A stretch of 64,000 nt of DNA, from assembly GCF_022267555.1 (NCBI RefSeq), contig NZ_CP073586.1, positions 558,001 to 622,000 of the forward strand. Direction: 5' to 3'. Numbering within the stretch: position 1 is the first letter of the stretch; each line of letters begins with the position of its first letter. Both the position numbers and the translations under genes were made by a program. Under the pieces are notes generated by a model. It was not told the origin of the DNA and ran no database searches. It saw nothing but the letters and a program-made list of their open reading frames with translations. Below are positions 980 to 58,554 of this stretch, piece by piece. The stretch comes from Proteiniphilum propionicum. GTDB taxonomy: Bacteria > Bacteroidota > Bacteroidia > Bacteroidales > Dysgonomonadaceae.

Positions 980-1090
980 TGAGTCTGCTCCAAAAAATCG
1001 GGAATATCAAAAATGGTTTTTTATAATGTATTGAATATTAATATCTGTTTTATCCGATTGTAATGAAAGAGACTTTCAGGAGGGGACTCA
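980..1090 (+). mobile_element. MITE-like element, copy 1 (111 bp)
   Basis: The element starts TGAGTCTGCTCC and ends GGAGGGGACTCA, which are inverted repeats matching at 10 of 12 positions. The same ends and similar length recur at 48399-48510, 52414-52524 and 58320-58429. Internally this copy is the most diverged, and its flanks (TATT left, TGCT right) show no target duplication, so it is probably the oldest. It has no coding capacity. Confidence 0.75.
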
Positions 1091-1116
1091 TGCTGATAAT
1101 CGGTATGTAAAACCGC

Positions 1117-2898
1117 TTAAACCGACCTTTTCACATAGTGCGTATGCAACAGATGATGCGATCTATCACTCATGGGGCACATGAGAAAATCCTCATAAAT
1201 CCTTACAATTTCGGGGTTTTCATGAGATTTACGTATCGTTTTGTGTTCATCTTCAAAATAGATTGATTCAGCACGCTTTTCCCGTATTTCGGCATTGGTC
1301 GGTATAGGCTGGCCTCCTCCGCCCAGGCAGCCTCCCGGGCAGGTCATTACCTCGATAAATGCGTAAGGTGATGTGCCATTTTTTATCTGATCGAGCAACA
1401 AAGCAGCATTTTTCAGCGTGTTGCCAACAGCAACTTTCAAAGTTGTTCCGTTCATATCTATATCGGCTTCTCTTATCCCCTGTAATCCCCGGACCGACTT
1501 GAAATCTAAACTCTTCAGGTTTCTCCCGGTATAAAGCTCATAAGCAGTCCTTAACGCTGCTTCCATAACACCACCCGTGGATCCGAACAACACTGCCGCA
1601 CCTGTCGATTCGCCCAGTGGGCTGTCGAACTCTTCATCCGGAAGCTGCGTGAATTCAATACCCGATTCACGAAACATACGAGCCAGTTCCCTTGTGGTTA
1701 GAGAATAATCTACATCAAAGAATCGTTCCTCCTCCGTAAGGCTCATTCTCTCTTTCCAGTATTGGAATGCACCATCCATTTCGGGCCTTCGGGCCTCATA
1801 TTTCTTGGCGGTGCAGGGCATAACAGAAACTACAACTATATCTCTCGGGTCGGTACCTGTTTTTTCGGCGTAATAGGTTTTGGCTACCGCACCAAACATC
1901 TGTTGTGGAGATTTACATGTAGACAAATGTTCCAGCAGCTGTGGATAAAAATGTTCAATAAACTTTATCCATCCCGGTGAACAGGATGTTATCATTGGCA
2001 AGACGCCACCGTTTCTTATGCGTTGAAGCAACTCATTACCCTCTTCAACAATGGTAAGGTCTGCCGCAAAATCGGTATCAAAGACCCTCGAAAAACCAAG
2101 ACGTCTCAACCCGGCAACCATCTGCCCCGTTACCAGGCTTCCATAAGGCATTCCCATGGCCTCCCCGATACCCACGCGTACGGCGGGTGCTGTTTGCACC
2201 AGTACCACTTTCCCCGGATCCTGCAATACAGCCCTCACGTCGCTGACATAGCTTTTTTCAGTGATAGCACCCGTAGGACATACTAATGAGCATTGGCCAC
2301 AGTTTGTACATGCTACCAAGCCTAAGCCCCGGTCAAGAAAAGTTGATATCTTTGTCTTAAGCCCTCGCCCCACAAAATCTATAACCCTCACATTCTGCAT
2401 GTTGCTGCAGACAGCCACACATCGTCCGCAAAGAATACACTTTTCCGGATCCCGCACCAACGATAAAGATGACTCGTCTTTAGCAAGGTGTTCTTTACGA
2501 GTTCGCTCAAATCGCCTTGTGTTGATTCCCAAAGTAAAGGTCAACTGCTGCAGTTCACAGTTTCCGTTTCGGCTGCAAACCAAACAATCCTGCGGATGGT
2601 TGGCCAGCAACAGTTCAACGTTCATTTTCCGAGCTTCCATAGCACGCGGGCTATCAGTCAATATCTCCATCCCTTCAGTGACTTTTGTGATACAGGAGCG
2701 CAACAAAGACTTCGCCCCTTTCACCTCAACTACGCACACGCCGCAGGAAGCGTTTTGTGATACATCTTTCAGATAACATAACGAAGGCACATGAATACCT
2801 ACAGAGCTGCATGCCTGCCATATGGTACTACCATCGGCTACCTGAACTACCTGATTATTTATTCTTACTTCCATAGTATGCTTTTTTTCTATTGACAT
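1117..2898 (-). CDS. hydA: [FeFe] hydrogenase catalytic subunit HydA (HndD type)
   Basis: Catalyses reversible proton reduction to H2 with electrons passed from HydB/HydC. Numbering from the upstream GTG/ATG at 2919: an N-terminal [2Fe-2S] domain (C48, C59, C62, C76), a His-Cys cluster motif (HPQDCLVCSRNGNC, 108-121), two [4Fe-4S] ferredoxin motifs (CILCGRCVAVC at 161 and CTNCGQCSLVC at 204), then the H-cluster domain with L1 TSCSPGW (311), L2 MPCTAKKYE (367) and L3 EVMTCPGGCLGGGGQP (523-538). L1 has Ser where many enzymes have the second Cys; from memory this form is common in the HndD group. The open frame reaches 2919, but start ATGs at 2898 (overlapping the hydB stop) or 2874 are more likely; I chose 2898. 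Cytoplasmic. Last gene of the HydC-HydB-HydA operon. Confidence 0.95.
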   Translation of the reverse strand: MSIEKKHTMEVRINNQVVQVADGSTIWQACSSVGIHVPSLCYLKDVSQNASCGVCVVEVKGAKSLLRSCITKVTEGMEILTDSPRAMEARKMNVELLLANHPQDCLVCSRNGNCELQQLTFTLGINTRRFERTRKEHLAKDESSLSLVRDPEKCILCGRCVAVCSNMQNVRVIDFVGRGLKTKISTFLDRGLGLVACTNCGQCSLVCPTGAITEKSYVSDVRAVLQDPGKVVLVQTAPAVRVGIGEAMGMPYGSLVTGQMVAGLRRLGFSRVFDTDFAADLTIVEEGNELLQRIRNGGVLPMITSCSPGWIKFIEHFYPQLLEHLSTCKSPQQMFGAVAKTYYAEKTGTDPRDIVVVSVMPCTAKKYEARRPEMDGAFQYWKERMSLTEEERFFDVDYSLTTRELARMFRESGIEFTQLPDEEFDSPLGESTGAAVLFGSTGGVMEAALRTAYELYTGRNLKSLDFKSVRGLQGIREADIDMNGTTLKVAVGNTLKNAALLLDQIKNGTSPYAFIEVMTCPGGCLGGGGQPIPTNAEIREKRAESIYFEDEHKTIRKSHENPEIVRIYEDFLMCPMSDRSHHLLHTHYVKRSV

Positions 2899-5800: not shown

Positions 5801-6023
5801 ATAGCATTACCAGCGGCTCTTGTGAACAGAAACCGAAACATCCCGTCTGTTTGAGCTTACAATCGGCACCTTCACTTTCTATCTGATTGATTAAATGACG
5901 ATAAACAGTATCGGCTCCGTTGCCTATACCGCAGGTACCCATCCCTATCAGAATCATTGGTTCGAGAGGAAGAATTCTCTCCCTGTTTTGATCTTGCAAT
6001 ATTTTTATTTCATACGGTTTCAT
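2889..6023 (-). CDS. hydB: HydB/NuoF-like hydrogenase subunit fused to a GltD-type FAD oxidoreductase
   Basis: At 1044 residues this is far longer than a typical HydB/NuoF (about 600). Order: thioredoxin-like [2Fe-2S] domain (about 1-100; C31, C55, C62, C66); NuoF core with the FMN/NADH-binding GRGGAGFPTGLKWS (195-208) and GAYMNRNEIESDPHML; SLBB region; [4Fe-4S] motif SCGKCTPCREG (C484, C487, C490, plus C530). After about residue 560 a second module follows: GltD/NfnB-like Cys-rich segment (CENSCPLHMNIPGY, CHFHCQMRCRRE), FAD-binding IAIIGAGPAGL (671), a second dinucleotide fold IVIIGAGNVALDAA, and a C-terminal RCLRCDVRCQ. The second module usually handles NADPH in glutamate synthase and Nfn. 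I infer that the complex may link H2 to both NAD(H) and NADP(H). It overlaps hydC by 14 bp and hydA by a few bp. Confidence 0.93.
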   Translation of the reverse strand: MKPYEIKILQDQNRERILPLEPMILIGMGTCGIGNGADTVYRHLINQIESEGADCKLKQTGCFGFCSQEPLVMLYKPGKPMLAYCKVHEKDIKRIIESIKSDKICRNKLLCRIDLWDFLTSKVEFGRGYEDVPHWDEIPFFKGQVKVVLRHAGFIDPEEILDYIAVGGYSALANVLSGIEPEEVISEVVKSKLRGRGGAGFPTGLKWSIMQKQESAGKYIICNADEGDPGAYMNRNEIESDPHMLIEGMLIGAYAMGADRGIAYVRAEYPLAVKRLKKAIEQAEKLGLIGENILDSGFSFRMDVVEGAGAFVCGEETALIASIEGNAGRPLPRPPYPAEKGLYGKPTNINNVETWCNVPVIIEKGSDWFRGIGTEKSTGTKVFSLVGKVKNTGLVELPLGSSLEQFVFSIGEGTGTTKRVKAVQIGGPSGGCIPLEYFSTPVDYESLNSIGAIMGSGGMVVMDQDNCMVDVARYFLEFNSGESCGKCTPCREGLAQALAILTRITAGHGTEADLAMLELLGGVIKDSSLCALGQTAPNPIMTTLKYFRHEYEEHIREKRCHAGTCESLFMALCENSCPLHMNIPGYIELIKEGRWEDAFELTLRDNPLPGTLGRICHFHCQMRCRREMLDQPVSQGEIHRYLADTIYQLGKEGEIYRNLAKEKLPSTRKRIAIIGAGPAGLTAAFYLVRLGHEVTIYDAMPEAGGILRYGIPQYRLPKELLQKEIKVVRKLGVQFKMNRRLGENLSLEELKKEFDAVFIAIGAWKDVKINIPGVNAKGVFAGTEILKSMAMGEIPQAGQHIVIIGAGNVALDAARSLLRLGKDVTIVYRREKNDMPANAIEILESEEEKIGYCFLSSPIEIITGQSGQVCALRIERMKPGGVDRSGRRMSVATGIFEEIPCDSVILAIGERVGSESLADSLEVGNDGRINVNRFSFQTSEPKIYAGGDAVSGPATAAEAMGMAKMAAAAIDRVLMNEDRFHLLSRKFDYGDKVPVNPRPCTGNVARKLSVRDRVNNFNEISFGFTGEQARNEVERCLRCDVRCQ

Positions 6024-6555: not shown

Positions 6556-6643
6556 AAGACATATTTTTAAAATGTATAAACAATGAAACAGGCAGCAATA
6601 TTGAATTGACGCTTACTGTGTTAATCCATATTGTTTCCTCCAG

Positions 6644-6651
6644 CAAATGTA
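6644..6651 (-). promoter_or_regulatory. Candidate -7 box of the hydCBA operon
   Basis: Minus strand reads TACATTTG, matching TAnnTTTG, 89 nt upstream of the hydC ATG. No convincing -33 box is visible; the palindrome 6665-6690 occupies the -33 position. Confidence 0.45.
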
Positions 6652-6664
6652 ATAAACACAATTG

Positions 6665-6948: not shown

Positions 6949-6990
6949 TGAAAAATTTGGGCATTGCTGCACAAACCATTCAATCAGAAC

Positions 6991-8724: not shown

Positions 8725-8752
8725 TGCCTGACATACTGAAAAAAAATACATC

Positions 8753-27271: not shown

Positions 27272-27616
27272 TGATTATTTTTAACTATATATTGCAATAT
27301 CTAAGAAAATATCAAAAATAAATAATGTTAATTAGTCGGCACTTAATAAATTATTTTATTTTTATGTTTGCATATCAGCTTTTTTTATCTTTATTTTGTG
27401 GATTATTCTAAATCATTTTTGATTATTAATATTTTTTGCTCGCTCCGCGTTACTATAAGAGACAATCAAAAATGAGTATATTTAACATACTAAAGAAACG
27501 TGAAAGGGTGCTTTCCTTGTTTACGAAGGATCGCATAAGTGCTGGAAAACGATGGAAATCATCAATGAGAAAATACGAAAGACCCAACTGATAATTTTTT
27601 TAACAAAAAGTATCCT
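27272..27616. other. Intergenic region with a 39-codon reading frame
   Basis: AT-rich interval after the decayed phosphoesterase. TATGTTTG at 27363-27370 matches the -7 consensus and could serve the downstream oxidoreductase gene. A short frame at 27472-27591 (MSIFNILKKRERVLSLF...) has no recognisable family and may be a remnant. Nothing else is seen. Confidence 0.45.
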
Positions 27617-45642: not shown

Positions 45643-47355
45643 ATGGATAGAAGAAGTTTTATTACGTACGCTACTTTATTGGGAGGTTCTGCAGCATTAA
45701 AGGGTAATAATACTTTTATACCCTCCAAGAAACATATAAAAAAGTCCATTAATTCCAGATCACGTGAACTACACGCAGATGTCATCATCCTGGGTGGAGG
45801 AATGGGGGGGTGTGCTGCCGCTCTTGCCTGTTGCCGCAATGGACTGAGTGTGATCATGACCGAAGAGACCGACTGGATTGGTGGGCAAGTGTCCCAGCAG
45901 GGAGTCCCTCCCGACGAACACCAGTGGATCGAGACCCACGGCGCACCGCAATCGTATCGAGAGTTCAGAAATAAGGTACGCAACTACTACCGTCAGAATT
46001 ATCCGCTTACGGAAGCGGCCCGCGGCCGGGTAAATCTCAATCCGGGTGATGGGAGCGTATCCAGGATATGTCATGAGCCAAGAGTTGCCGTGTCCGTCTT
46101 GACAGATATGCTTTCGCCGTTTCTTAGTACCGGAAAATTGCGGATTCTCCTTAACCATAAGGTATGGAGCAGCGAAGTCTACGGTGACCAGGTAATAAGT
46201 GTAGCAGTAAAGAGCATGGAAAAAGGTGACCGGACTATATTAACGGGTGATTCTTTCGTTGATGCAACTGAATGTGGAGATCTGCTCCCATTGACAAATA
46301 CGGAATATATTACAGGTACAGAATCGAAACATGACACTAAAGAACTGCATGCACCCGAAAAGGCTGATCCGATGAACAACCAGGCATTTACCGTCTGCTT
46401 TGCAATGGATTATCAACCCGGAAGAGACAATGTACAGGATCCTCCAAAGGAGTATGATTTCTGGAGAAAATATGTTCCTGAATTGACTCCTCCCTGGTCG
46501 GGAAGGTTGCTCGATTTATCCTACTCTAATCCACGTACGCTGCAACCTCAGAAAGTGGGCTTCGACCCATCGGGGAAAAACCCGGAAGGTCTCTTCAACT
46601 TATGGAACTACCGTCGCATCATAAACCGACAAAACTTTGTTGAAGGCACATATGATGGAGATATCACCATTGTCAACTGGCCACAAAACGATTTTCTTTT
46701 GGGTAACCTGCTGGATGTGCCGGAAAAAACATTCAAAGAAAATGTTGAAAAGGCAAAACAGTTGAGCCACGCACTCTTCTACTGGTTGCAAACCGAGGTG
46801 CCCAGACCCGATGGCGGTAAAGGATGGCACGGCCTAAGGCTGCGAGGGGATATCATGGGCACCCATGACGGGATGGCAAAATATCCCTACATCCGGGAAT
46901 CAAGACGCATCCGTGCCGAATTCACAGTTCTGGAAGAACACGTGGGAGCCGAAAACAGACGTTTGGTTGCCGGCGATATTAAAGGGATGCGTTCCGCAGA
47001 ATTTTTCGACAGTGTGGGCATCGGTTTTTATGCCATCGACCTGCATCCCTCTACAGGTGGCATCAATTATATCGACATTCCGTCGCTTCCTTTCCAAATA
47101 CCACTCGGCGCACTGCTACCCATACGTATGAACAACCTGCTCCCGGCCAACAAAAACATCGGCACCACTCATATCACCAACGGCTGTTACCGGTTGCACC
47201 CTGTGGAGTGGAGCATTGGAGAAGCGGTAGGCCAACTGATTGCTTTCGCAAAAAAGAAGGAGGTGCCTTTCAGAGCTGTAAGGGAACAGCGGGAGCTTTT
47301 GACGGATTTTCAACAAATGTTACATAAGCAGGGTGTGGAAACTGAATGGCCTTGA
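45643..47355 (+). CDS. Tat-type exported FAD-dependent oxidoreductase
   Basis: 570 residues with MDRRSFITYATLLGG, a Tat-like leader. FAD-binding motif ADVIILGGGMGGCAAALACCRNGLSVIMTEETDWIGGQVSQQG (read in parts) begins near residue 45. Other FAD_oxidored-family features are YREFRNKVRNYYRQ, SFVDATECGDLLPL, WNYRRIINRQNF, and the C-terminal NKNIGTTHITNGCYRLHPVEWSIGEAVGQL that closes the FAD site. The family is common in Bacteroidetes and Verrucomicrobia carbohydrate loci; reactions are largely unknown, probably sugar or polyol oxidation. Its end overlaps the open frame of the next gene, whose real start lies 45 bp downstream. Confidence 0.85.
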   Translation: MDRRSFITYATLLGGSAALKGNNTFIPSKKHIKKSINSRSRELHADVIILGGGMGGCAAALACCRNGLSVIMTEETDWIGGQVSQQGVPPDEHQWIETHGAPQSYREFRNKVRNYYRQNYPLTEAARGRVNLNPGDGSVSRICHEPRVAVSVLTDMLSPFLSTGKLRILLNHKVWSSEVYGDQVISVAVKSMEKGDRTILTGDSFVDATECGDLLPLTNTEYITGTESKHDTKELHAPEKADPMNNQAFTVCFAMDYQPGRDNVQDPPKEYDFWRKYVPELTPPWSGRLLDLSYSNPRTLQPQKVGFDPSGKNPEGLFNLWNYRRIINRQNFVEGTYDGDITIVNWPQNDFLLGNLLDVPEKTFKENVEKAKQLSHALFYWLQTEVPRPDGGKGWHGLRLRGDIMGTHDGMAKYPYIRESRRIRAEFTVLEEHVGAENRRLVAGDIKGMRSAEFFDSVGIGFYAIDLHPSTGGINYIDIPSLPFQIPLGALLPIRMNNLLPANKNIGTTHITNGCYRLHPVEWSIGEAVGQLIAFAKKKEVPFRAVREQRELLTDFQQMLHKQGVETEWP

Positions 47356-47399
47356 CCCGTAAGGCAGCTTTTATAAACATTATTAACAACATACAGGAG

Positions 47400-48296
47400 A
47401 TGAAAAAAACAAGCCATTTAATATTGATTCTGATTTTAGGACTAATCGCAATGAACATGAATGCAGAAGGTATGAAAAACAAAGAGAAAAGAGTAATTGT
47501 AATCTGTGCCCATCCCGATGATGCAGAATTGACAACGGGCGGTACCGGCATCCTTTTATCACGCTCAGGATATAAAGTTAAACTTGTCTCTCTTACAAAT
47601 GGCAATAAGGGACATCATGAAGGCACGAAAAACGAGATAGCTATCCGCAGATACAATGAAACTCAGGAAGTAAAGAAGCGAATGAACTGTGAATACGAGA
47701 TACTCAATAATGAAGATGGGGAACTGGAAGCAAATTTAAAAAACCGCATGGAGGTGATACGACTGATACGGGAGTGGAAAGCCGACATTGTGATCACTCA
47801 TCCTTCGTATGACTATCATCCTGATCACCGGAACACCTCTTTACTGGTACAAGATGCCGCATTTTTGGTTAATGTCCCTAAAATATTACCAGAAGTCCCG
47901 GCATTAACCGAGAGTCCTTTATTTCTTTATACGAGAGGGCGTTATGCTGATCGTCAAAAGCCCAACCCCGATATCGTAGTAGATATCACACCGGTGGTAA
48001 GAGAGAAAGCATATATCATTGATGCTCATGCATCCCAAATATATGAATGGTTGCCCTGGATTAACCGGAGCAACAAGATCATTCCAGACACACAAGAAGA
48101 GAAAATTGAATATATCCTGAAAGAATATGTGCTGAAGCGGGGAGAGATAAAGGAAAAAGACAGACCTGTTGTTGAAAAATGGTATGGGAGCAAGGCAAAA
48201 GAAGTAAAAACAATCGAAGCATTTGAAATCTGCGAATTTGGCCGTAGTGTCGACGATCGGGAGATCAGGGAATTATTCCCAATGTTTCCCAAATAA
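47400..48296 (+). CDS. PIG-L-family N-acetylglucosamine deacetylase-like protein
   Basis: 298 residues from ATG 47400 (MKKTSHLILILILGLIAMNMNAEG, a signal peptide). An AGGAG Shine-Dalgarno at 47395-47399 abuts this ATG, unusually strong here, although tight; it supports 47400 over the open frame from 47346. Zn-site motifs are VICAHPDDAELTTGG and THPSYDYHPDHRNTS, with FLYTRGRYADRQKPNPDIVVDI later. PIG-L enzymes N-deacetylate GlcNAc in GlcNAc-PI, mycothiol and bacillithiol precursors, or other GlcNAc conjugates. Exported here, it likely works on glycan fragments from locus B. Followed by a 411-bp intergenic region with a MITE-like copy. Confidence 0.9.
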   Translation: MKKTSHLILILILGLIAMNMNAEGMKNKEKRVIVICAHPDDAELTTGGTGILLSRSGYKVKLVSLTNGNKGHHEGTKNEIAIRRYNETQEVKKRMNCEYEILNNEDGELEANLKNRMEVIRLIREWKADIVITHPSYDYHPDHRNTSLLVQDAAFLVNVPKILPEVPALTESPLFLYTRGRYADRQKPNPDIVVDITPVVREKAYIIDAHASQIYEWLPWINRSNKIIPDTQEEKIEYILKEYVLKRGEIKEKDRPVVEKWYGSKAKEVKTIEAFEICEFGRSVDDREIRELFPMFPK

Positions 48297-48398
48297 CAAA
48301 GGTTTTGTTAAATTTGACTTAATAGCCGTATAGCCTGATAATTATTCCGTTCTTTTAATCAGTCAGGTGCGAGAAGTCCGTTTAAAACAGTTGATTAT

Positions 48399-48510
48399 TG
48401 AGTCTGCTCCGAAAACCCCAAAACCCGATTTCAGAAGGTCACAACTCGCTGGAAATCGATAGCATTCTTTGTTGGATTTTCAGCAAAAAAGACTTATCGG
48501 AGGGGACTCA
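48399..48510 (+). mobile_element. MITE-like element, copy 2 (112 bp)
   Basis: Ends are TGAGTCTGCTCC and GGAGGGGACTCA. The flanking bases are TTAT on the left (48395-48398) and TTAT on the right (48511-48514), a perfect 4-bp target duplication. The internal part includes GAAAACCCCAAAACCCGATTT, CAACTCGCTGGAAATC and AAAAAAGACTTAT, shared with copies 3 and 4. Confidence 0.85.
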
Positions 48511-48573
48511 TTATTGAAATAGAAGAAGAAATATAAAAACAATATTCGCAACTTGATAAAAATAAGCAAAAAA

Positions 48574-48654
48574 AAGAGCAATAAGCTTTCAAGAAGATCG
48601 TTTTTTAAATCGTCAGGCATAACCACACATGAGGAAGGAATCCGGCACAATTAA
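48574..48654 (+). pseudogene. Vestige of a Tat-signal gene start
   Basis: The frame KSNKLSRRSFFKSSGI resembles the MNKLSRRSFLKSSG-type Tat leader of Bacteroidetes exported enzymes, but has no ATG in frame nearby and stops after HEEGIRHN. It lies 54 bp before the SGNH hydrolase gene. It may be chance. Confidence 0.35.
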
Positions 48655-48707
48655 AGAACGGGCCAAAAAATCCATCTGACAATAATGTAAATAATAAAAA
48701 TAACCAG

Positions 48708-49787
48708 ATGACAAAAGTAAATTTGTTTTTAGCATGTATCCTCTATTTAGTCACATCGCAAATACATGCGCAAACGGTATATTATGAGGCAGATCAGTTT
48801 CAGCTTATAGGAAAAATATCGGAAGAAACCGAGACACGATACGAACGACTCCCGGCCTACCTTAAAGAGAGGTGCCGCGCTCCGTTATGGAATTTGGGAA
48901 AAAACAGTTCCGGCCTAGCGTTACGTTTCAGGACAAACAGCAGTGCCATCTCTACGAGATGGGAAGTGGCGGGAGATAACCATATGAACCATATGACCGA
49001 TACAGGTATCAAGGGGATCGATCTCTATGCTTGGGAAAAAAATCACTGGCAACCTGTGAAAGCAGGCCTTCCTACAGGGAAGACAAACGAACGGGTCATT
49101 ATCTCGAATATGACGGCGCAGGAACGGGAATATATAATGTTTCTTCCTCTTTATGACGGAATTATTTCTCTCTCAATAGGCATAGACTCCACCGCCTATA
49201 TTAAAAATCCGGCACTGCCCTACCCCGACACAACTCATCCCATTCTGGTTTACGGAACCAGCATCACTCAGGGAGGATGTGCTTCAAGGCCGGGAATGTC
49301 GTATACCAACATCCTTACCCGCAAATTAAACAGGGAGGTGATTAACTTGGGATTCAGCGGAAACGGTCAGCTCGATTATGAGATTGCTGAATTAATGGCA
49401 ACTCGCCGGGATGCATCGATGTTTATACTAGACTTTATTCCCAATGTGAACGCTAAACAGCTGACTGAAAAAACAATGACTTTTTTCAACATATTGCGTA
49501 AAACCAATCCAAACACCCCGATCCTTTTCGTTGAAACAATCATTTTTCCTCATTCATTTTACGATAGAAAGACCTATGAAACAATCACGGAAAAGAACAG
49601 ACTGTTAAAAGAAGAATACGAAAAGATTAAACGCAGTGGAGATAAAAACATATACTACCTGACAGGTGATGACCTGATAGGTAATAATGGCGAAGCAACC
49701 GTTGATGGTGTACATCTTACCGATACAGGCTTCGCACGAATGGCAGAAAAACTTTTTGGAGCAATATACTGTATAGAAAACAAATAA
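48708..49787 (+). CDS. Exported two-domain SGNH/GDSL hydrolase
   Basis: 359 residues with a signal peptide (LFLACILYLVTSQIHAQ). The N-terminal jelly-roll domain (about 20-175, with LRFRTNSSAISTRWEV, GIDLYAWEKNHW, IMFLPLYDGIISLSIGI) is the SGNH_hydro N-terminal module, and the catalytic domain has VYGTSITQGGCASRPGMSY (nucleophile Ser), LGFSGNGQLDYEIAELM (Asn block) and DGVHLTDTGFARMAEKL (Asp/His). Probably an O-deacetylase for acetylated sugars. Its stop is 18 bp before the next gene, and the genes from here to the sugar porter look like one transcript. Confidence 0.88.
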   Translation: MTKVNLFLACILYLVTSQIHAQTVYYEADQFQLIGKISEETETRYERLPAYLKERCRAPLWNLGKNSSGLALRFRTNSSAISTRWEVAGDNHMNHMTDTGIKGIDLYAWEKNHWQPVKAGLPTGKTNERVIISNMTAQEREYIMFLPLYDGIISLSIGIDSTAYIKNPALPYPDTTHPILVYGTSITQGGCASRPGMSYTNILTRKLNREVINLGFSGNGQLDYEIAELMATRRDASMFILDFIPNVNAKQLTEKTMTFFNILRKTNPNTPILFVETIIFPHSFYDRKTYETITEKNRLLKEEYEKIKRSGDKNIYYLTGDDLIGNNGEATVDGVHLTDTGFARMAEKLFGAIYCIENK

Positions 49788-49805
49788 CATATAATACAGA
49801 CAACT

Positions 49806-50915
49806 ATGCTGAACAACAGAAGAGATTTTATTAAAAAAGCAGCTCTTGCCAGCGCATCAGCAGCTGCTATTCCATTGTTGCCGAGTTGTAGCAACAGCAA
49901 AAAAAATATTATGCAGGATAATGGTTCAAATATATATAAGGACAGTGAACTGAAAAGCGAACTTATTGTCCCGAGAAACAACGGAATCAAAATTACAGGT
50001 ACGTTTTTAGATGAAATTTCTCATGATATTCCTCACCAGAACTGGGGTGAAGCGGAATGGGATCTTGATTTCCAACACATGAAGGCAATAGGTATTGATA
50101 CGGTAATCATGATTCGTTCGGGTTACAAGAAATTCATTACTTACCCTTCACAATATCTGCTTGGCAAAGGATGTTATATGCCTTCTGTTGACCTGCTGGA
50201 TATGTATTTGAGACTCGCAGAGAAGTATGATATGAAATTTTACTTTGGATTGTATGATTCTGGCCATTACTGGGCTACTGGCGACATGTCGCACGAGATA
50301 GAAGACAACAAATACGTAATTGATGAGGTGTGGGAAAATTATGGCGAAAAATTTAAGAGTTTTGGGGGCTGGTATGTGAGTGGGGAGATAAGCCGCGCCA
50401 CCAAGGGAGCTATCGGAGCATTTTATGCAATGGGTAAGCAGTGTAAAGATGTATCTGGCGGATTACCCACATTTATTTCACCTTGGATAGATGGGAAAAA
50501 AGCTGTGGCAGCAAGCGGAATTTCCCTATCCAAAAACGAAGCCGTATCCGTTCAGCAGCACGAAAAGGAATGGGATGAGATTTTCGCGGGAATCCACGAA
50601 GTAGTTGATGCTGTTGCATTCCAGGATGGACATATCGATTATGATGAACTGGATGCTTTTTTCACTGTGAACAAGAAGCTGGCCGATAAATATGGTATGA
50701 AATGTTGGACAAATGCCGAGACTTTCGACCGCGATATGCCCATCAAGTTCCTGCCTATAAAATTCGATAAATTGCGCATGAAGCTGGAGGCAGCTCAACG
50801 TTGCGGATACGACAAGGCCATTACCTTTGAGTTCTCTCACTTCATGAGTCCACAGTCTGCCTACACTCAGGCGGGTAACTTATACTGCAGATATAAAGAA
50901 TACTTTAACTTGTAG
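49806..50915 (+). CDS. Tat-type exported DUF4434 protein 2
   Basis: 369 residues; leader NNRRDFIKKAALASASAAAIPLLPSC combines a Tat-type twin Arg with a possible lipobox. The DUF4434 barrel has KITGTFLDEISHDIPHQNWG, EWDLDFQHMKAIGIDTVIMIRSG, KFYFGLYDSGHYW, FGGWYVSGEISRATKG (conserved Glu, likely catalytic), PTFISPWIDGKK, DAVAFQDGHIDYDEL and CWTNAETFDRDMPIKFLP. These match a GH-clan-A-like architecture with Glu at strands 4 and 7, but the activity is unassigned. A shorter paralogue is at 43284-44330. The sugar porter follows after 5 bp. Confidence 0.85.
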   Translation: MLNNRRDFIKKAALASASAAAIPLLPSCSNSKKNIMQDNGSNIYKDSELKSELIVPRNNGIKITGTFLDEISHDIPHQNWGEAEWDLDFQHMKAIGIDTVIMIRSGYKKFITYPSQYLLGKGCYMPSVDLLDMYLRLAEKYDMKFYFGLYDSGHYWATGDMSHEIEDNKYVIDEVWENYGEKFKSFGGWYVSGEISRATKGAIGAFYAMGKQCKDVSGGLPTFISPWIDGKKAVAASGISLSKNEAVSVQQHEKEWDEIFAGIHEVVDAVAFQDGHIDYDELDAFFTVNKKLADKYGMKCWTNAETFDRDMPIKFLPIKFDKLRMKLEAAQRCGYDKAITFEFSHFMSPQSAYTQAGNLYCRYKEYFNL

Positions 50916-50920
50916 ACAAG

Positions 50921-52342
50921 ATGAACAAGGTAAATAATTTAGGCTATGTGACGTTTCTGTCCGTTGTTGCTGCATTGGGTGGTTTTTTATTCGGTTACGA
51001 TACGGCTGTAATATCCGGAACCGTTTCGCAGGTTTCCAGTCAGTTTTCGCTTACAACTCTGCAAAGTGGCTGGTATGTAGGCTGTGCTCTGGTTGGGTCG
51101 ATTACAGGTGTACTCTTCGCCGGGACATTAAGTGACCGTTTGGGACGCAAAAAAACAATGCTGATTTCAGCTATACTTTTTACTGTTTCTGCAGCAGGAT
51201 GTGCTGTCTCTGCCAATCTTGATCAGCTAGTTATTTATCGTATGATTGGCGGGGTAGGTATTGGTATTGTATCCGTAGTATGCCCTCTGTATATCTCGGA
51301 AGTTTCACCCGCATCGCACCGGGGACGTATGGTATCGCTCTACCAGCTTGCCGTTACAGTCGGGTTTCTTGGAGCTTATCTGATGAATTACTTTTTACTT
51401 GACCTGTCTGTAAATTTCTCCTCAAGCAACCCCCTTTTACTCAAAATATTTGGAACAGAAGTATGGCGAGGTATGCTGGGAGCTGAAACATTACCTGCCC
51501 TACTGTTCTTTATCATCATTTTCTTTATTCCGGAAAGCCCCCGATGGCTGATTGTAAAAGAACAGGAAAGCCGGGCATCCTCTATTTTTGCAAAAATATA
51601 TAATGACTCATCTGTTATTTCGTTTCAGATAAACGAAACAAAGTCGATGCTGCAGTCGGAAGAAAAATCTGAATGGAAATTGCTTTTAAGCCCGGGTATC
51701 TTCCGTGCAGTAATTATAGGAGCCGCTATTGCTATCTTGGGGCAATTTATGGGAGTAAATGCCGTATTGTACTACGGACCGTCAATTTTCGAAGCCAGCG
51801 GGCTCTCCAGCGGAGATTCCCTGTTCTACCAGTCGCTTATTGGTCTGGTAAATATGGGCACCACCATATTGGCACTTTTAATCATAGACAGGATAGGCAG
51901 GAAAAAGCTGGTCTATATTGGTGTATCTGGTATGATTGTTTCTCTTTTGCTTATCGGAACCTACTTTTTAATGGGAGACACATGGAATCTATCAAGCATT
52001 TTCCTGTTAGTATGTTTTCTAATGTACATATTTTTCACAGCCGGATCCATTAGTGCTGTTATTTTCGTTTTTCTGTCGGAAATGTATCCTACCCGCATCC
52101 GTGGTACCGCCATGTCTATAGCGGGACTATCTCTCTGGATAGGCACCTATCTCATCGGGCAACTTACACCGTGGATGCTTGAGACCCTTACTCCCGCCGG
52201 AACCTTCTTCCTGTTCGGTATCATGTGTATCCCTTATATGTTGATCGTATGGAAGCTTATGCCGGAAACAGCCGGTAAATCACTGGAGGAGATCGAACGA
52301 TTCTGGATGAAAGGTAAAAACTCAAGCAGCTCATCTTTATAA
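50921..52342 (+). CDS. Sugar porter-family MFS transporter
   Basis: 473 residues with about 12 hydrophobic segments, inner membrane. Sugar-porter signatures are GGFLFGYDTAVISGTVSQV, DRLGRKKTM, YRMIGGVGIGIVSVVCPLYISEVSPASHRG, PESPRWLIVKE, QFMGVNAVLYYGPSIFEASG, DRIGRKKLVYIG and PETAGKSLEEIERFW. These place it with proton/sugar symporters such as XylE. It follows the DUF4434 gene by 5 bp and probably imports the monosaccharide released by locus B enzymes; the substrate is not readable from sequence. Confidence 0.94.
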   Translation: MNKVNNLGYVTFLSVVAALGGFLFGYDTAVISGTVSQVSSQFSLTTLQSGWYVGCALVGSITGVLFAGTLSDRLGRKKTMLISAILFTVSAAGCAVSANLDQLVIYRMIGGVGIGIVSVVCPLYISEVSPASHRGRMVSLYQLAVTVGFLGAYLMNYFLLDLSVNFSSSNPLLLKIFGTEVWRGMLGAETLPALLFFIIIFFIPESPRWLIVKEQESRASSIFAKIYNDSSVISFQINETKSMLQSEEKSEWKLLLSPGIFRAVIIGAAIAILGQFMGVNAVLYYGPSIFEASGLSSGDSLFYQSLIGLVNMGTTILALLIIDRIGRKKLVYIGVSGMIVSLLLIGTYFLMGDTWNLSSIFLLVCFLMYIFFTAGSISAVIFVFLSEMYPTRIRGTAMSIAGLSLWIGTYLIGQLTPWMLETLTPAGTFFLFGIMCIPYMLIVWKLMPETAGKSLEEIERFWMKGKNSSSSSL

Positions 52343-52413
52343 CACTCTTCTTGAAAGACATGTGCCCGAAGAGATTAATACATCTAATTTTCTGCTATTT
52401 TCGCATCGAGAAA

Positions 52414-52524
52414 TGAGTCTCCTCCAATAAGTCTTTTTTCTTGAAAATTTCACAAGATGATCATTGATTTTCAATAAGTTGCAAACCGATAAAATTGGGT
52501 TTTAAGGTTTTCGGAGAGGACTCA
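52414..52524 (-). mobile_element. MITE-like element, copy 3 (111 bp, inverted)
   Basis: Read on the minus strand it starts TGAGTCCTCTCCGAAAACC and ends TTATTGGAGGAGACTCA, in line with copies 2 and 4. Flanks are GAAA (52410-52413) and GAAA (52525-52528), a perfect 4-bp target duplication. Confidence 0.85.
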
Positions 52525-52652
52525 GAAATTAAATTAGAAAATTATGTTGTCAATTAGTCGGCCTTTAAAAAGTATTCAATCATCTATATTACAGCAAATA
52601 GTAGATACATCTATTGGTTTATTTTGCAAGTTTTCGTAATTAAACACTCCTA

Positions 52653-52695
52653 TTCAAGAGCATTGAACATTTTTAGTTCATGCTCTTGAATTTTT
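52653..52695 (+). terminator. Hairpin with T-run just before the sialate operon
   Basis: TTCAAGAGCAT-T-GAAC pairs with GTTC-ATGCTCTTGAA around ATTTTTA (52653-52690), and TTTTT follows. It would terminate transcripts from the sugar porter unit. Because it also ends 9 bp before the nanS -7 box, it might instead or additionally act as an operator. Confidence 0.75.
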
Positions 52696-52698
52696 AAT

Positions 52699-52706
52699 TA
52701 TTTTTG
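52699..52706 (+). promoter_or_regulatory. Candidate -7 box of the sialate operon
   Basis: TATTTTTG matches TAnnTTTG and lies 22 nt upstream of the ATG at 52729. The palindrome 52653-52690 covers the -33 position. Confidence 0.5.
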
Positions 52707-52728
52707 CAATTATCCTATCAACAACAAT

Positions 52729-55700
52729 ATGAAGAATGTAAATTTTTTTATACTCTTTTTCCTGATTTTTGGAATACGGATTTTTGCAGGCCCAGTCAAA
52801 GTAGCCTGTGTGGGGAACTCAGTGACATTTGGTGTGGGAATTGAGAACCAGGATGAAAAGTATCCGGCTCAACTACAAGCGATGCTGGGTAAAGAATATG
52901 AAGTAAAAAACTTTGGACACAGCGGCGCTTCATTGTTAAAGAACGGATTCAGGCCATATTGGATATTACCCGAGTTTGAAGAAGCGATTTCATATAAACC
53001 GGATATCGTTATCATTCATCTCGGGCTTAATGATACTGATCCGAGAAGCTGGCCAAAATTTCGCGATGAGTTCGTAAGAGATTATTCCAGCCTGATTGAT
53101 ACCTTTAAAACAATAAACCCCGGGGCAGAGGTGAAAATTTGCAGGTTAACACCCATCTTCACCGGGCACAAACGATTCAAGTCGAGTACCAGGGACTGGT
53201 TCTGGCAGGTACAGGATGCTCTTGAAACTGTTGCTGAGATCAATAATGTAGCACTTATTGACCTTCATACGCCGCTATACCGCCGTCCCGACCTACTGCC
53301 TGATGCAGTACATCCAACCGGTGAGGGTGCCGGTATTATTGCAAGAACAGTTTATGGTGCAATTACCCAAGAGTATGGCGGACTAAGGTTAGCTCCTCCA
53401 TTCTCAAGCGGAATGGTGTTGCAACGTAAGCAACCAATCGTATTCTGGGGGACTGCCAATGGCGGGAGTGAGGTCGCGGTAAAATTCAACACATATAAAA
53501 AATCAGCCGTGACTGGCGCTGACGGAAAATGGGAGATTGAATTTCCAGCTTTGGAAGCAGGAGGTCCATATACGGCGGTTATAGAGAACGGAATATCAAA
53601 AATAATATTAAAAGATATACTTATCGGCGATGTGTGGCTTTGTTCCGGTCAATCAAACATGGAGTTCATTTTAAGTAAAGCAGCCACAGCATCTGAAGAT
53701 ATTCCTGGTGCCAACTTCCCGAAAATACGTCTGCTCAATATGCAACCTGTTGCCTATACCAATAATGAGGCATGGGAAGAGGAGACTCTGGAAAAAATTA
53801 ACCGGTTACAATATTTTACTATGGGTGAATGGCAGCGATGTACACCGGAGACAGCCGGAAATTTCTCTGCTGTGGCATACCATTTTGGGAAAAAAATCCA
53901 TCAGGAAACAGGTGTCCCGATGGGACTTATACTGAATGCTACAGGTGGCTCACCTGCTGAAGCATGGATAGACCGGCTAACACTTGAACGCCATCCCCGT
54001 TTGGTTGATATGTTTCAAAACTGGAACAATAACGATTATATAAACAGTTGGTGCCGGGAAAGAGCAACAAAGAACATAGAGTTATCCAAAAACAGCCTGC
54101 AGCGACATCCTTACCATCCAGCCTACCTTTACGAAGCCGGCATTTCAGAAATCACAAAATTAAATATAACCGGAGTTATCTGGTACCAGGGAGAATCGAA
54201 CGAGCATAATGTGGAACTGCATGAAGTGATCTTCCCCACTCTCGTGAAAAGCTGGAGAAAGGCTTGGGATAGGGAGTTCCCTTTTTATTTCGTACAACTT
54301 TCCAGTACGGCAACCGGTAGAGAAACCTGGGGGCACCTTAGAGACAGTCAGCGCAGATTATCAGCCCTTGTCCCAAAAACCGGCATGGCTGTCTCTTCAG
54401 ATCTGGGCGACAGTACCGACGTACATCCGCGTCAGAAAAAACAGATCGGGGAACGCCTTGCACGATGGGCTCTAAATCGAACATACGAGATAACGGATAT
54501 TGTTCCATCCGGTCCGTTGTTTCGCGATCTCTTTTTCGATGGAGGAGAGGGCTGGCTCTTTTTCGAATATGCCGAAGGATTGCACACCTCTGACGGGGAG
54601 CCTCTTCGCTCGTTCGAGCTGGCTGAGTATCCGGGATTGTTTTATCCGGCAACTGCAGAGGTTATTGGGAATGTTGTCAGAGTTAGTTCAAAAATGGTGA
54701 GAAATCCCAAATACGTACGTTACGGATGGAGCTCCTTTTCCGATGGAAACCTTGTGAATGGTGAAGAATTACCAGCTTCAACCTTTTCAAATGAAAATTT
54801 AGCTGTAACCTTTGCCGAAATGATACCGTCACGCACAGAACACAACAATACAAATAACGATATGAAAATAACCTGGACAAAACTAACTACAAAAGGGTTG
54901 AATAATAACCTGGCAAAGGGGTTATCAGCTACATACGCTGCACTAATAGACAACAAGCTAGTGGTTGCCGGCGGGGCCAACTTCCCCGGAAAACCCGGAT
55001 TTGAAGGCGGTTCGAAAGCATTTTACAATGAAATTATGCTGTACGATTCAACAAAAAATAAGTGGAAGCTTATAGGACACTTGCCCCATTCATCGGCTTA
55101 CGGTGTATCCGTCCCCGTTTCGGACGGTGCATTGTGGATTGGCGGAAGCACCGCTTCGCAATCACTGAAGAGCGTTTATAGAATTTCCTTATCAGGGACT
55201 GGCACTATTGATCTGAAGCCGTTCCCGGGATTACCTGCCACCATGGATAACTTTGCCGGGTGCTCTATTGGAGACAAAGTCTTTATTGGGGGAGGAAACG
55301 TGAACGGGAAACCGTCAAATACTTTTTATTTCATGGATGCGAAGACCGATTCGGGATGGACGGTTTTACCCGATTATCCGGGCCTGCCCCGCGTTCAGCC
55401 TGTGATGGCAGCCGTTGAAGAAGAGGGGAAACCTTACGTCTACCTGTTCGGTGGTTTCTTTGGCGGGGATACCGAAAATAAACCGGCAATGGCAACCGAT
55501 GTGCTTTGCTATGATGTCACAGCCGGGAAATGGGGAAAGGCTGGAGAGCAGATCGATCCGGGGACCGGAAAGCCATTTTCTCTCGGAGGTGCTGCAGCAA
55601 TGCCGGTTGACAACAGGTATATACTTTGTTTGGGAGGCGTGAATCACGATCTATTTCTCTATGCCTTAGCTTCTCAACACAGCATAGCAATCAAAGCAGA

Positions 55701-55965
55701 CTTAACAGCTGACGAGCGTAAACAGCAAAATTTTGAATTCTCGAAAAATTATATGACTCAACCCATAGAATACTACAAATTCAATCAGGAATGTCGTATA
55801 TTTGACACGTTTACCGGTAAATGGAAGACAATTGACGTTACACCCAACACTGCCCGTGCGGGGGCAACACTCGTTTTCAGCGGAAAAGAGCTATACGCCG
55901 TACAAGGTGAACTGAAACCGGGCGTTCGTACACCAGTTACGATTAAAGGAGAGATTGACATATGA
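52729..55965 (+). CDS. SGNH / sialate O-acetylesterase (NanS) / NanM-type mutarotase fusion
   Basis: 1078 residues, signal peptide 1-20. Module 1 (about 21-215) is an SGNH hydrolase: VACVGNSVTFG (Ser31), IIHLGLNDTD (Asn101 block), DAVHPTGEG (Asp192/His195). Module 2 (about 220-700) is a sialate O-acetylesterase: DVWLCSGQSNMEFILSKA (Ser309), LILNATGGSPAEAWI, GVIWYQGESNEHN, DVHPRQKKQIGERLA. Module 3 (about 712-1078) is a kelch-type beta-propeller like NanM (cyclically permuted mutarotase): LVVAGGANFPGKPG, LWIGGSTASQ, VFIGGGNVNGKPSN, YLFGGFFGGD, ILCLGGVNHDLF, LYAVQGELKPG. An ATG and MKITWTKL at residue 712 look like the old start of a separate NanM gene. Predicted job: remove O-acetyl groups from sialic acid and speed anomer interconversion before uptake. 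The stop overlaps the MFS start (ATGA). Confidence 0.9.
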   Translation: MKNVNFFILFFLIFGIRIFAGPVKVACVGNSVTFGVGIENQDEKYPAQLQAMLGKEYEVKNFGHSGASLLKNGFRPYWILPEFEEAISYKPDIVIIHLGLNDTDPRSWPKFRDEFVRDYSSLIDTFKTINPGAEVKICRLTPIFTGHKRFKSSTRDWFWQVQDALETVAEINNVALIDLHTPLYRRPDLLPDAVHPTGEGAGIIARTVYGAITQEYGGLRLAPPFSSGMVLQRKQPIVFWGTANGGSEVAVKFNTYKKSAVTGADGKWEIEFPALEAGGPYTAVIENGISKIILKDILIGDVWLCSGQSNMEFILSKAATASEDIPGANFPKIRLLNMQPVAYTNNEAWEEETLEKINRLQYFTMGEWQRCTPETAGNFSAVAYHFGKKIHQETGVPMGLILNATGGSPAEAWIDRLTLERHPRLVDMFQNWNNNDYINSWCRERATKNIELSKNSLQRHPYHPAYLYEAGISEITKLNITGVIWYQGESNEHNVELHEVIFPTLVKSWRKAWDREFPFYFVQLSSTATGRETWGHLRDSQRRLSALVPKTGMAVSSDLGDSTDVHPRQKKQIGERLARWALNRTYEITDIVPSGPLFRDLFFDGGEGWLFFEYAEGLHTSDGEPLRSFELAEYPGLFYPATAEVIGNVVRVSSKMVRNPKYVRYGWSSFSDGNLVNGEELPASTFSNENLAVTFAEMIPSRTEHNNTNNDMKITWTKLTTKGLNNNLAKGLSATYAALIDNKLVVAGGANFPGKPGFEGGSKAFYNEIMLYDSTKNKWKLIGHLPHSSAYGVSVPVSDGALWIGGSTASQSLKSVYRISLSGTGTIDLKPFPGLPATMDNFAGCSIGDKVFIGGGNVNGKPSNTFYFMDAKTDSGWTVLPDYPGLPRVQPVMAAVEEEGKPYVYLFGGFFGGDTENKPAMATDVLCYDVTAGKWGKAGEQIDPGTGKPFSLGGAAAMPVDNRYILCLGGVNHDLFLYALASQHSIAIKADLTADERKQQNFEFSKNYMTQPIEYYKFNQECRIFDTFTGKWKTIDVTPNTARAGATLVFSGKELYAVQGELKPGVRTPVTIKGEIDI

Positions 55966-57236
55966 AGAACAGTAAAGCCTATCCGTGGATATTAGTCGGT
56001 TTGCTTTGGTTTGTAGCGCTGCTGAACTATCTCGACCGCCAAATGCTTTCCACCATGCAATCATCCATGCAGATGGATATTAAAGAGTTAGCTATAGCAG
56101 AAAACTTCGGCAGAATAATGGGGATATTCCTGCTTATTTACGGTTTGATGAGTCCGGTAGCCGGAATAATTGCCGACCGTATAAACCGCAAATGGCTGAT
56201 TGTAGGGAGCTTGTTTGTGTGGTCAGCAGTAACGTACGGATTAGGCTACGCGCAAACTTTTCAGCAGGTGTATTGGCTCCGTGCGCTGATGGGCGTCAGC
56301 GAAGCGCTTTACCTGCCCACGGGATTGGCGATGATTGCCGATTTCCACTCGTCGAAGACAAGGTCGCTGGCAATCGGCATTCACATGTCGGGATTATATG
56401 CCGGGCAGGCGCTCGGCGGATTCGGTGCAACCATCGCGGCAAACTATTCATGGCACACGGTTTTCCATTGGTTCGGAATTGCCGGGATTGTATATGCCAT
56501 GCTGCTTATTTTCCTGCTGCACGACAAAGAGGGACACGCGGGCACCAAGACAGCCAGGCTGAATGTGGATCCCCAAAAGGCAAGCATTAATAAAACGTCT
56601 GTTTTAAGCTCATTTGGGATTATCCTGGGCACTGTCTCTTTCTGGATAATGCTTTTCTACTTTATGGCTCCGAGTTTTCCCGGCTGGGCAACAAAAAACT
56701 GGCTCCCCACACTGTTTTCCGAAAACCTGGGAATTGAAATGGCTAAAGCCGGGCCCATGGCTACCATTTCCATCGCCATAGCCTCGTTTATCGGCGTGCT
56801 TATCGGAGGACCGCTATCCGACCGTTGGGTTCAGAAAAATATCCGCGGCCGCATATACACCAGTGTCATCGGACTCACACTAACCATCCCTTCTCTCATA
56901 CTGCTGGGGTATGGACACACATATGCCGGACTGATTGGAGCAGCAATGCTTTTTGGCATTGGATACGGCATGTTCGACACAAACAATATGCCGATACTCT
57001 GCCAGATTATTCCTCAGAAATACCGTGCCACTGCTTATGGAATTATGAACATGATGGGTGTATTCGCGGGTTATGCCGTTACGCTGATACTGGGAAGCTC
57101 TACAGACGCGGGTAATCTGGGTGCCGACTTCAGCAAGTTATCTATTGTGGTGCTGGCAGCCATAATTTTGATGATACTTTTTGTGAAGCCGAAGCATGAG
57201 CTCACCTATCTGCACGATAAAGAAAAAACAGATTAA
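55962..57236 (+). CDS. nanT: NanT-like MFS transporter (sialate uptake)
   Basis: 424 residues with 12 hydrophobic segments. Markers of the anion:cation symporter/NanT-like MFS group are PWILVGLLWFVALLNYLDRQMLSTM, ADRINRKWLIVGSL, LMGVSEALYLPTGLAMIADFHSS, RSLAIGIHMSGLYAGQALGG and LSDRWVQKNIRGRIY. It belongs to a different branch from the sugar porter at 50921. The ATGA overlap with the NanS-NanM gene and the NanA gene 25 bp downstream make sialic acid the likely substrate, as in Tannerella/Bacteroides nan operons (from memory). Hexuronates are the alternative for this branch. Confidence 0.88.
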   Translation: MKNSKAYPWILVGLLWFVALLNYLDRQMLSTMQSSMQMDIKELAIAENFGRIMGIFLLIYGLMSPVAGIIADRINRKWLIVGSLFVWSAVTYGLGYAQTFQQVYWLRALMGVSEALYLPTGLAMIADFHSSKTRSLAIGIHMSGLYAGQALGGFGATIAANYSWHTVFHWFGIAGIVYAMLLIFLLHDKEGHAGTKTARLNVDPQKASINKTSVLSSFGIILGTVSFWIMLFYFMAPSFPGWATKNWLPTLFSENLGIEMAKAGPMATISIAIASFIGVLIGGPLSDRWVQKNIRGRIYTSVIGLTLTIPSLILLGYGHTYAGLIGAAMLFGIGYGMFDTNNMPILCQIIPQKYRATAYGIMNMMGVFAGYAVTLILGSSTDAGNLGADFSKLSIVVLAAIILMILFVKPKHELTYLHDKEKTD

Positions 57237-57260
57237 TAATTTAAAACAAAAACGGGAATT

Positions 57261-58184
57261 ATGAAATTTGAAAAAATCAAAGGTTTAGTTGTAGCGCCAT
57301 TCACTCCATTCGACAGAAAGGGTGAAGTAGATTTAGGACCGATAGCTGACTATGCAACCATGTTGCAAAAGAATGGTTTGATAGGGGTGTTCATAAACGG
57401 GTCATCAGGCGAAGGCTATATGCTGACAGTGGAAGAACGGTTGAAACTGGCCGAAAAATGGATGTCTGTAGCACCTGACGGATTCAAAGTTATTGTGCAC
57501 GTTGGAGCCACCTGCATAAAGGATAGCTACAGGATGGCACAACATGCGCAGGATATCGGGGCTTTCGGCGTTGGAGCCATGGCTTCCCCATTCCCGAAAG
57601 CGGGAAGGGTGGAAGAACTGGTGCAATATTGTGAAGAGATTGCAACAGGTGCACCCAACCTGCCATTTTACTTCTATCACATCCCGGCATTGAATGGTGT
57701 TTATCTTCCCATGCTGCCCTTTCTGAAAAAGGCTGAAGGACGCATTCCAAATCTGGCCGGCATTAAATATACCTTTGAGAGCCTTTATGAATACAACCAG
57801 TGTATGTTATATGAAAATGGGAAGTTTGATATGCTCCACGGGCAGGACGAGACCATACTTTCGGCGTTAGTAATGGGAGGTGCGCAAGGCGGCATCAGTG
57901 GGACTGGAAGTTATATTGGAAGTTCACTTGTTGGGGTGATCAACGAATACAACAAAGGTAATATCGAAAAAGCACGAGATCATCAGAATTTTGCACAGGA
58001 GGTTATAAATGTAATTGCACGGTACAGAGGAAATATTGTGGCCGGTAAACGAATCATGAAGCTGATTGGGCTGGACCTGGGCATCAACCGCACACCATTT
58101 CAGAATGTGACAGCCGAAGAGGAAACGATTATTAAAAAAGAGCTGGAATCGATAGTTTTTTTTAACAGGTGTAATAAATTTTAG
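57261..58184 (+). CDS. nanA: N-acetylneuraminate lyase
   Basis: Cleaves sialic acid to pyruvate and ManNAc in the cytoplasm. 307-residue DapA/NanA TIM barrel: KGLVVAPFTPFDRKGEVD, the pyruvate-carboxylate site NGSSGEGYMLTVEER, catalytic Tyr in LPFYFYHIPALNGVYLPM, Schiff-base Lys in LAGIKYTFESLYEY, and GAQGGISGTGSYIGSSL. The FYFYHIP and GIKYT forms favour sialate lyase over dihydrodipicolinate synthase, and the operon supports this. The preceding NanT gene is 25 bp upstream. No epimerase (NanE) is in this operon; the AGE-family protein at 31003 is the nearest candidate. Confidence 0.93.
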   Translation: MKFEKIKGLVVAPFTPFDRKGEVDLGPIADYATMLQKNGLIGVFINGSSGEGYMLTVEERLKLAEKWMSVAPDGFKVIVHVGATCIKDSYRMAQHAQDIGAFGVGAMASPFPKAGRVEELVQYCEEIATGAPNLPFYFYHIPALNGVYLPMLPFLKKAEGRIPNLAGIKYTFESLYEYNQCMLYENGKFDMLHGQDETILSALVMGGAQGGISGTGSYIGSSLVGVINEYNKGNIEKARDHQNFAQEVINVIARYRGNIVAGKRIMKLIGLDLGINRTPFQNVTAEEETIIKKELESIVFFNRCNKF

Positions 58185-58554
58185 GCAAGTTTCAAGTATA
58201 CCCGTTATGCAGGATGTAATTTAAAATTAGTTGCATTTTCACTTGTTTTGAGATATAACAGGCATTAAAAGCAATTGCCTTGCAATTTCCGGTCCAGGCA
58301 GATTTTAAAAAATAAGAATTGAGTTTGCTCCGAAAATCCCCAAATCCGGTTTTAATAGTTTTCAACTCGCTGAATATCAATGTGGTTTTGGAATATTTTC
58401 ATTAGAAAAGAGTTATAATAGGGGACTCAGAATTAGTAGGAGGCAAATGAAAATAACGGTTATGGTGAGCAGAAAATTATTTCAATTATTTTAAAATCAA
58501 AATCCATTTTTGCAAGCAGAGAGAAAAGCTTGTAAAAATTTTACAAAAATCCGT
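58185..58554. other. Intergenic region with MITE-like copy 4
   Basis: Apart from the element at 58320-58429 I see no gene or clear terminator. An AT-rich segment (58430-58554) leads to the BACON/M60 gene. Confidence 0.6.
58320..58429 (+). mobile_element. MITE-like element, copy 4 (110 bp)
   Basis: Starts TGAGTTTGCTCCGAAAATCC and ends AATAGGGGACTCA. Flanks are GAAT (58316-58319) and GAAT (58430-58433), a perfect 4-bp target duplication. It shares the internal CAACTCGCTGAATATCAAT stretch with copy 2. Confidence 0.85.

Follow-up and report, generated by a model that had tools for sequence, protein, structure and literature searches.

The question raised by this locus is whether a sequence of about 110 bp, recurring four times in 64,000 nucleotides of Proteiniphilum propionicum DNA (contig NZ_CP073586.1, positions 558,001 to 622,000 of the forward strand), is a mobile element or a fixed component of the genes beside it. 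A sequence-only reading of the window, as we call this whole stretch, had proposed four copies of a miniature inverted-repeat transposable element (MITE), gene-less, intergenic and bounded by inverted ends. We located all four exactly where that reading had placed them: they align end to end, have the ends TGAGTC..CTCC / GGAG..GACTCA, and overlap no selected open reading frame (ORF) of at least 70 aa. Together with the two arms of one target duplication, they are:

980-1090, + strand: MITE copy of an old, diverged subfamily; ends intact, without target duplication; model score 60.9 bits
48394-48399, no strand: left ATTATT target duplication, its last T being the element's first base as drawn in the sequence-only reading
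48399-48510, + strand: MITE copy of the TGCTCC-AACCCC type, with the 6-bp duplication ATTATT
48510-48515, no strand: right ATTATT target duplication, its first A being the element's last base as drawn in that reading
52414-52524, - strand: MITE copy of the CCTCTCC type, with the 6-bp duplication ATTTCT (- strand)
58320-58429, + strand: MITE copy of the AATCCCCAAATCC type, with the 6-bp duplication AGAATT

The right inner end of the copy at 58320 is altered (TAATAGGGG), and the copy at 980 is flanked by ATTT on the left and TGCT on the right, which form no direct repeat. We are highly confident that these are copies of a ~110-bp MITE whose ends would be recognised by the transposase of an insertion sequence (IS) of the same genome, here named IS-A, or of a shortened close relative, and which inserts with a 6-bp A-NNNN-T duplication. 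Mechanistically, the DDE-type transposase of IS-A (1,890 bp, four copies), or of kin that are now shortened, would recognise the MITE ends and insert the element mostly at A-NNNN-T through a 6-bp staggered cut, the filling-in of which would leave 6-bp direct repeats around GAGTC...GACTC. That the transposase acts on the MITE in trans, and which bases it would bind, we infer.

The family is far larger than the four copies first described, which are real members of a set of many dozens. Across the organism's own genome (3,906,720 bp, one contig), the left-end 17-mer, allowing up to three mismatches, was found at 68+60 places as against 2+1 for a reversed control, and the right-end 24-mer pattern at 22+23 places as against 0, counts far above chance. 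A census model, sequence-only and built from 28 copies (alignment A2), returned 106 rows, or 91 places once 11 opposite-strand repeats and 4 IS-A ends had been removed; these 91 include at least two ends of another insertion sequence, IS-D, and four members of a second, 101-bp family. Near-full-length copies number 58, the other 33 of the 91 being dropped as their ends lay out of the model's reach. Copy length is 108-113 bp in 27 of the 28 aligned copies (the remaining one, L024, has 100 bp), and the terminal inverted repeats pair in 98.8% of cells over nine end pairs. Clustering of the 58 copies at 75% identity gave groups of 20 (mean identity 0.93), 16 (0.84), 4 (0.76), 4 (0.96; the 101-bp family) and 2, with 12 copies unclustered. 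Of the window copies, those at 48399 and 58320 belong to the group of 16, the one at 52414 to the group of 20, and the one at 980 to the loose group of 4 (mean identity 0.76). The family probably spread in several bursts.

Target duplications are frequent well beyond the window. A perfect 4-bp duplication stands at the exact boundary of 38 of the 58 near-full-length copies, whereas 2,000 shuffles of the flanks gave a mean of 0.88 and a maximum of 6. In other genomes, where 30 of 44 model rows were used, 22 copies were duplicated (shuffle mean 0.63, maximum 4), or 21 of 29 once the locus L191, discussed below, is left out. The genome-wide search for duplicated copies that the sequence-only reading had suggested thus speaks for mobility.

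A transposase gene between similar ends, another check suggested at the outset, was also found. IS-A consists of four end pairs 1,889-1,890 bp apart, in copies 99.9-100% identical; one copy has an uninterrupted 568-aa transposase ORF, and in the other three the ORF is split by one-base length differences in runs of A. The protein carries a DUF772 domain (PF05598, 37.3 bits against a cut-off of 23.1), which is not specific, as an IS5-type transposase at locus L012 has it too. The best NCBIfam match is IS1182 (NF033551, 103.8 bits, E 1e-29; the next family scores 45 bits); as this score lies below the curated cut-off of 270 bits, we call IS-A IS1182-like and do not file it as a member of IS1182. 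Within the window, relatives of this partner transposase are absent at E <= 0.001, which agrees with the earlier claim that no autonomous transposase is present there as far as that kind goes, other kinds of transposase not having been searched for. The transposase query also retrieved IS-C (~1,840 bp, nine copies fetched), together with IS-D and IS-E, shortened copies keeping only parts of the transposase. The ends of MITE cluster 3 match IS-A at 21 and 18 of 24 positions, IS-C at 13 and 16, and IS-D at 18 and 19, so that this cluster agrees best with IS-A overall. A scan of named genomes gave seven loci with relatives, one of them 99% identical in a record named Paludibacter sp. and the others in records named Porphyromonadaceae, Bacteroidales, Parabacteroides and Proteiniphilum (two); a 568-aa ORF occurs at two of these loci in one assembly (L178 and L179), both ends being found only in L178. 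Near one IS-A copy lies a 505-aa ORF for an IS5-family transposase (L012:4151-5668, - strand; NF033578 above cut-off).

The length of the duplication can be refined from its surroundings. The sequence-only reading had described 4-bp direct repeats (TTAT, GAAA and GAAT) at three window copies; these are present, but are better read as parts of 6-bp repeats. In the 38 own copies with a perfect 4-bp repeat, A always precedes the repeat and T follows it in 33; still further out, T recurs in 25 copies and A in 31, placed symmetrically, so that the target takes the form TNNA-NNNN-TNNA. With T and A at the two extremities of the element, a 4-bp duplication with a site preference and a 6-bp duplication look identical at A-NNNN-T, and it is the exceptions that decide. 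We assembled 112 elements, namely 58 MITE copies of the own genome, 29 of other genomes (L191 excluded), another 3 of the 101-bp family and 22 ISs; the 4-bp repeat is present in 75 of them, and in 65 all 6 bp are repeated. Five of the 75 have a left terminal base other than T; each stands at a T-less target and carries that target's base (Fisher P 1.5e-5). On the right, a matching non-A terminal base occurs at three of four A-less targets (P 0.002). As these terminal bases track the target, we prefer to read the duplication as one of 6 bp, mostly of the form A-NNNN-T, flanking an element GAGTC...GACTC; the T and A on its outside belong in most cases to the target. Full 6-bp repeats flank 32 of 58 own MITEs, 17 of 29 in other genomes, 3 of 4 IS-A copies (the flanks of the fourth read as 7 bp), 8 of 9 IS-C, 1 of 3 IS-D, 0 of 1 IS-E and 3 of 5 ISs of the named records; in the IS-C count, copies L077 and L084 show the 6-bp repeat with the right end shifted by one base and none without the shift.

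Comparison with relatives shows both where the family occurs and where single insertions are missing. Under stricter filters, the family occurs in 11 of the 25 genus genomes searched out of 39 (own included) and in none of 16 genomes from other genera of the order, a distribution both genus-limited and patchy. Copies per genus genome range from 0 to 72, the richest relatives holding 25, 7, 6 and 3, and fixation at orthologous loci, the outcome named in advance as pointing away from a mobile element, was not what we saw. Three clean empty sites were recovered, as the sequence-only reading had proposed to look for. The copy at 48399 is missing from relative G043, where the flanks run on through a single GATTATTG; copy 684838 is likewise missing from G043 and copy 189978 from relative G053, with flanks aligning through a single target. 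The last two are the clear cases, across the junction, among the 20 of 39 predicted empty sites that were searched in four genomes; the site of copy 269842 gave a weak match across the junction, and the remaining sites one flank or no match. For 52414 and 58320, the fetched relatives match neighbouring genes, not both element flanks. The 344-bp interval with copy 980 corresponds to 11 bp in relative G014, an absence rather than a clean empty site, and the loci matching that of copy 980 in four relatives (L160-L163) have no model match at E <= 0.1. When nine genomes were searched again, G043 and G053 had no copy and G052 had one, L191 on contig C86, inside 2,105 bp identical to our genome; given these identical flanks we take it to come from the same strain or from contamination, and we left it out of the 6-bp test while keeping it in the structure tests on relatives and in the count of 22 of 30 duplications. 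At L221:277-510 (genome G010, contig C29), two copies stand in the same orientation with 11 bp between them. Taken with the duplications and the IS-A ends, the empty sites and uneven per-genome counts uphold the interpretation as a mobile element, and the family has what defines a MITE: short length without a transposase gene, inverted ends, target duplications, dispersed high copy number, a partner with matching ends, and empty sites in relatives.

Several observations weigh against this account or parts of it. Transposition itself was not observed. Twenty of the 58 own copies have no perfect 4-bp boundary repeat (3 have 5 bp, 1 has 6 bp and 16 none), and 10 of the 75 duplicated elements misfit a pure 6-bp model: five retain T and one retains A where the target base differs, and four have a non-A right base at an A target, for all of which later mutation is a possible source. 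Eight of the 58 copies are not cleanly intergenic, three ORFs (93, 101 and 121 aa) spanning a whole copy and five ORFs touching one. Apart from its ends, the MITE does not resemble any of the ISs identified here in a consistent way, and an origin from IS-A through simple deletion cannot be read from these sequences; the highest score in that comparison (z 6.7, copy 77700 against the left end of IS-C on the opposite strand) did not recur in the other six copies tried, and we set a deletion origin aside. The right end of cluster 3 is slightly closer to IS-D (19 against 18 of 24), and the ends of the largest cluster (20 copies) match IS-D at 20 and 18 of 24 and IS-A at 18 and 17. These end matches raise the possibility that the MITE is or was mobilised by a different member of this IS group, for instance one of the IS-D lineage, found here only in shortened form. 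In that case the family would largely record past activity; the IS-D copies retain just parts of the transposase. We regard this as possible but the less likely course: the left end of cluster 3 agrees best with IS-A (21 of 24, against 18 for IS-D), IS-A has an uninterrupted copy, and as IS-A and IS-C share the same form of target, one transposase may serve several clusters.

A different objection is that the repeat is a conserved structural RNA or regulatory element (a riboswitch, an attenuator, or a hairpin resembling the repetitive extragenic palindromic (REP) and enterobacterial repetitive intergenic consensus (ERIC) sequences) fixed beside genes. Three of the four window copies do fold better than shuffles in the consensus direction (z -3.0, -4.1 and -3.2; the fourth +1.1), with -2.8, -1.5, -1.1 and -0.7 on the opposite strand, and an internal stem shows signs of covariation: it pairs in 88% of cells in the 28 own-genome copies, C-G in one subfamily is replaced by U-A in another, and its covariation score is reached by 0 of 500 shuffles. 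The change at the pair that covaries most, however, runs along subfamily lines and could be a single event. With relatives added (alignment A3, which includes four opposite-strand rows and some duplicate loci), the score still exceeds 500 of 500 shuffles, but only 73% of cells pair. A rival short hairpin pairs in 87% of cells; its score is reached in 4 of 500 shuffles and surpassed by one slid version of the hairpin. We claim neither structure. Inverted ends, moreover, fold by themselves, copies lie in both orientations beside every kind of gene pair, the 16 genomes of other genera gave no match, and a search of the window against Rfam gave none at gathering score. Contradicted as it is by the target duplications and empty sites, an RNA or fixed regulatory origin is in our view extremely improbable.

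Slightly less remote, and still very unlikely in our judgement, is that the host has put a once-mobile element to use as a regulatory cassette in front of genes for glycan use. Three window copies precede an ORF start by 81-205 bp, in a run at 47346-59736 encoding PIG-L, a GDSL esterase, DUF4434, a sugar transporter, a NanM-like/esterase protein, a member of the dihydrodipicolinate synthase (DHDPS) family and BACON, which looks like a region for the use of sialic acid or amino sugars. The same copies also lie 72-136 bp behind stops, however, which weakens the earlier description of them as sitting next to operon starts, and the one at 48399 is absent from G043 between the same flanks. Genome-wide, 50 of the 58 copies overlap no selected ORF of at least 70 aa, and these are spread over tandem (29), convergent (12) and divergent (9) ORF pairs, counts from a mechanical ORF selection and without a genome background; this mostly intergenic placement may result from selection. 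The Bacteroidetes -7 promoter motif is TAnnTTTG; it is not enriched, occurring in 1 and 2 of the 58 copies as against 3.0 and 4.3 in shuffles, and a promoter role was dropped. The copy at 980, for its part, follows the stop codon of an [FeFe]-hydrogenase gene at a distance of 27 bp.

Within the MITE, a central TTGA-NNN-TCAA block, followed by an ATTTTC-type partner, is prominent when 28 diverged representatives, among them the 101-bp family, are aligned; it is common to MITE families with different ends, each of which resembles an IS lineage of its own, and was not convincingly found in the ISs identified here. One could imagine a non-autonomous lineage that has persisted for long by retaining a functional core while it re-fits its ends to successive transposases, a scenario we hold to be unlikely. 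If the block were under selection, the MITEs would not be mere deletion remnants, and the core would be a hairpin or protein-binding site for transposition or copy control.

The second MITE, of ~101 bp, shares this block with the first family, and its ends resemble those of IS-C (at best 20 and 18 of 24 positions). Seven copies were located with an exact pattern, and three of them have a 4-bp repeat; the copies at 633478 and 642178 have the same flanks, so one is probably part of a larger duplication. These copies, and the shortened IS copies, which are possible half-way forms between IS and MITE, are:

G000:C1 422331: 101-bp MITE copy
G000:C1 633478: 101-bp MITE copy
G000:C1 642178: 101-bp MITE copy
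G000:C1 920942: 101-bp MITE copy
G000:C1 2292921: 101-bp MITE copy
G000:C1 2350266: 101-bp MITE copy
G000:C1 3276625: 101-bp MITE copy
L073: shortened IS copy, 1,321 bp between ends
L074: shortened IS copy, 808 bp between ends
L075: shortened IS copy, 808 bp between ends
L076: shortened IS copy, 1,144 bp between ends

Two further similarities were noticed in the window close to the copy at 52414-52524. About 87 bp at 52552-52639, upstream of the gene at 52729, have 80-85% matches elsewhere in the relatives G014, G015, G023 and G024, and 52533-52571 resembles 27311-27349; this stretch is perhaps another repeat or a shared leader.

In the literature searched, which leaves most subscription journals outside, we met no mention of the family, and none of it pairs a MITE with Proteiniphilum or combines MITE, IS1182 and Bacteroidetes. 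The kind of element is already known, with precedents in Bacteroidales and Cardinium; new are the family itself, its IS1182-like partner, the 6-bp A-NNNN-T target and the paired MITE and IS lineages. A little-studied group thereby gains a large MITE family whose candidate autonomous partner persists beside it, and the parallel MITE and IS lineages with similar ends offer a system for testing how MITEs track transposase change; copies upstream of genes are, in addition, open to misreading as regulatory repeats. Among known systems, one study of Porphyromonas gingivalis describes the MITE-like elements MITE239, MITE464/PgRS, MITE700 and BrickBuilt, which share their ends with full-length ISs in that genome, BrickBuilt lying between genes (PMC4596501). 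BrickBuilt carries a minisatellite, and the partners are IS5-family ISPg elements with GAGAC../ACGTCA.. ends. Our family resembles these in being a Bacteroidales MITE with IS-matching ends in one genome, and differs in its IS1182-like partner, GAGTC ends and 6-bp repeats. The Cardinium MITE has an IS982-family parent; that is another IS family, and Cardinium is a host-restricted endosymbiont. In archaeal MITEs, according to PMC3852290, only the borders, generally <20 nt, resemble the autonomous partner, and here too only short ends are shared with the IS, although the archaeal hosts and IS families differ. Finally, with its size near 1.9 kb and its best profile match to IS1182, IS-A is like the IS1182 family (IS1182, IS1272); IS1272, as described in PMC5678879, makes no target duplications and replaces inverted-repeat targets, whereas the frequent 6-bp duplications found here indicate, for IS1182-like elements, a 6-bp A-NNNN-T duplication in contrast to the behaviour of IS1272.

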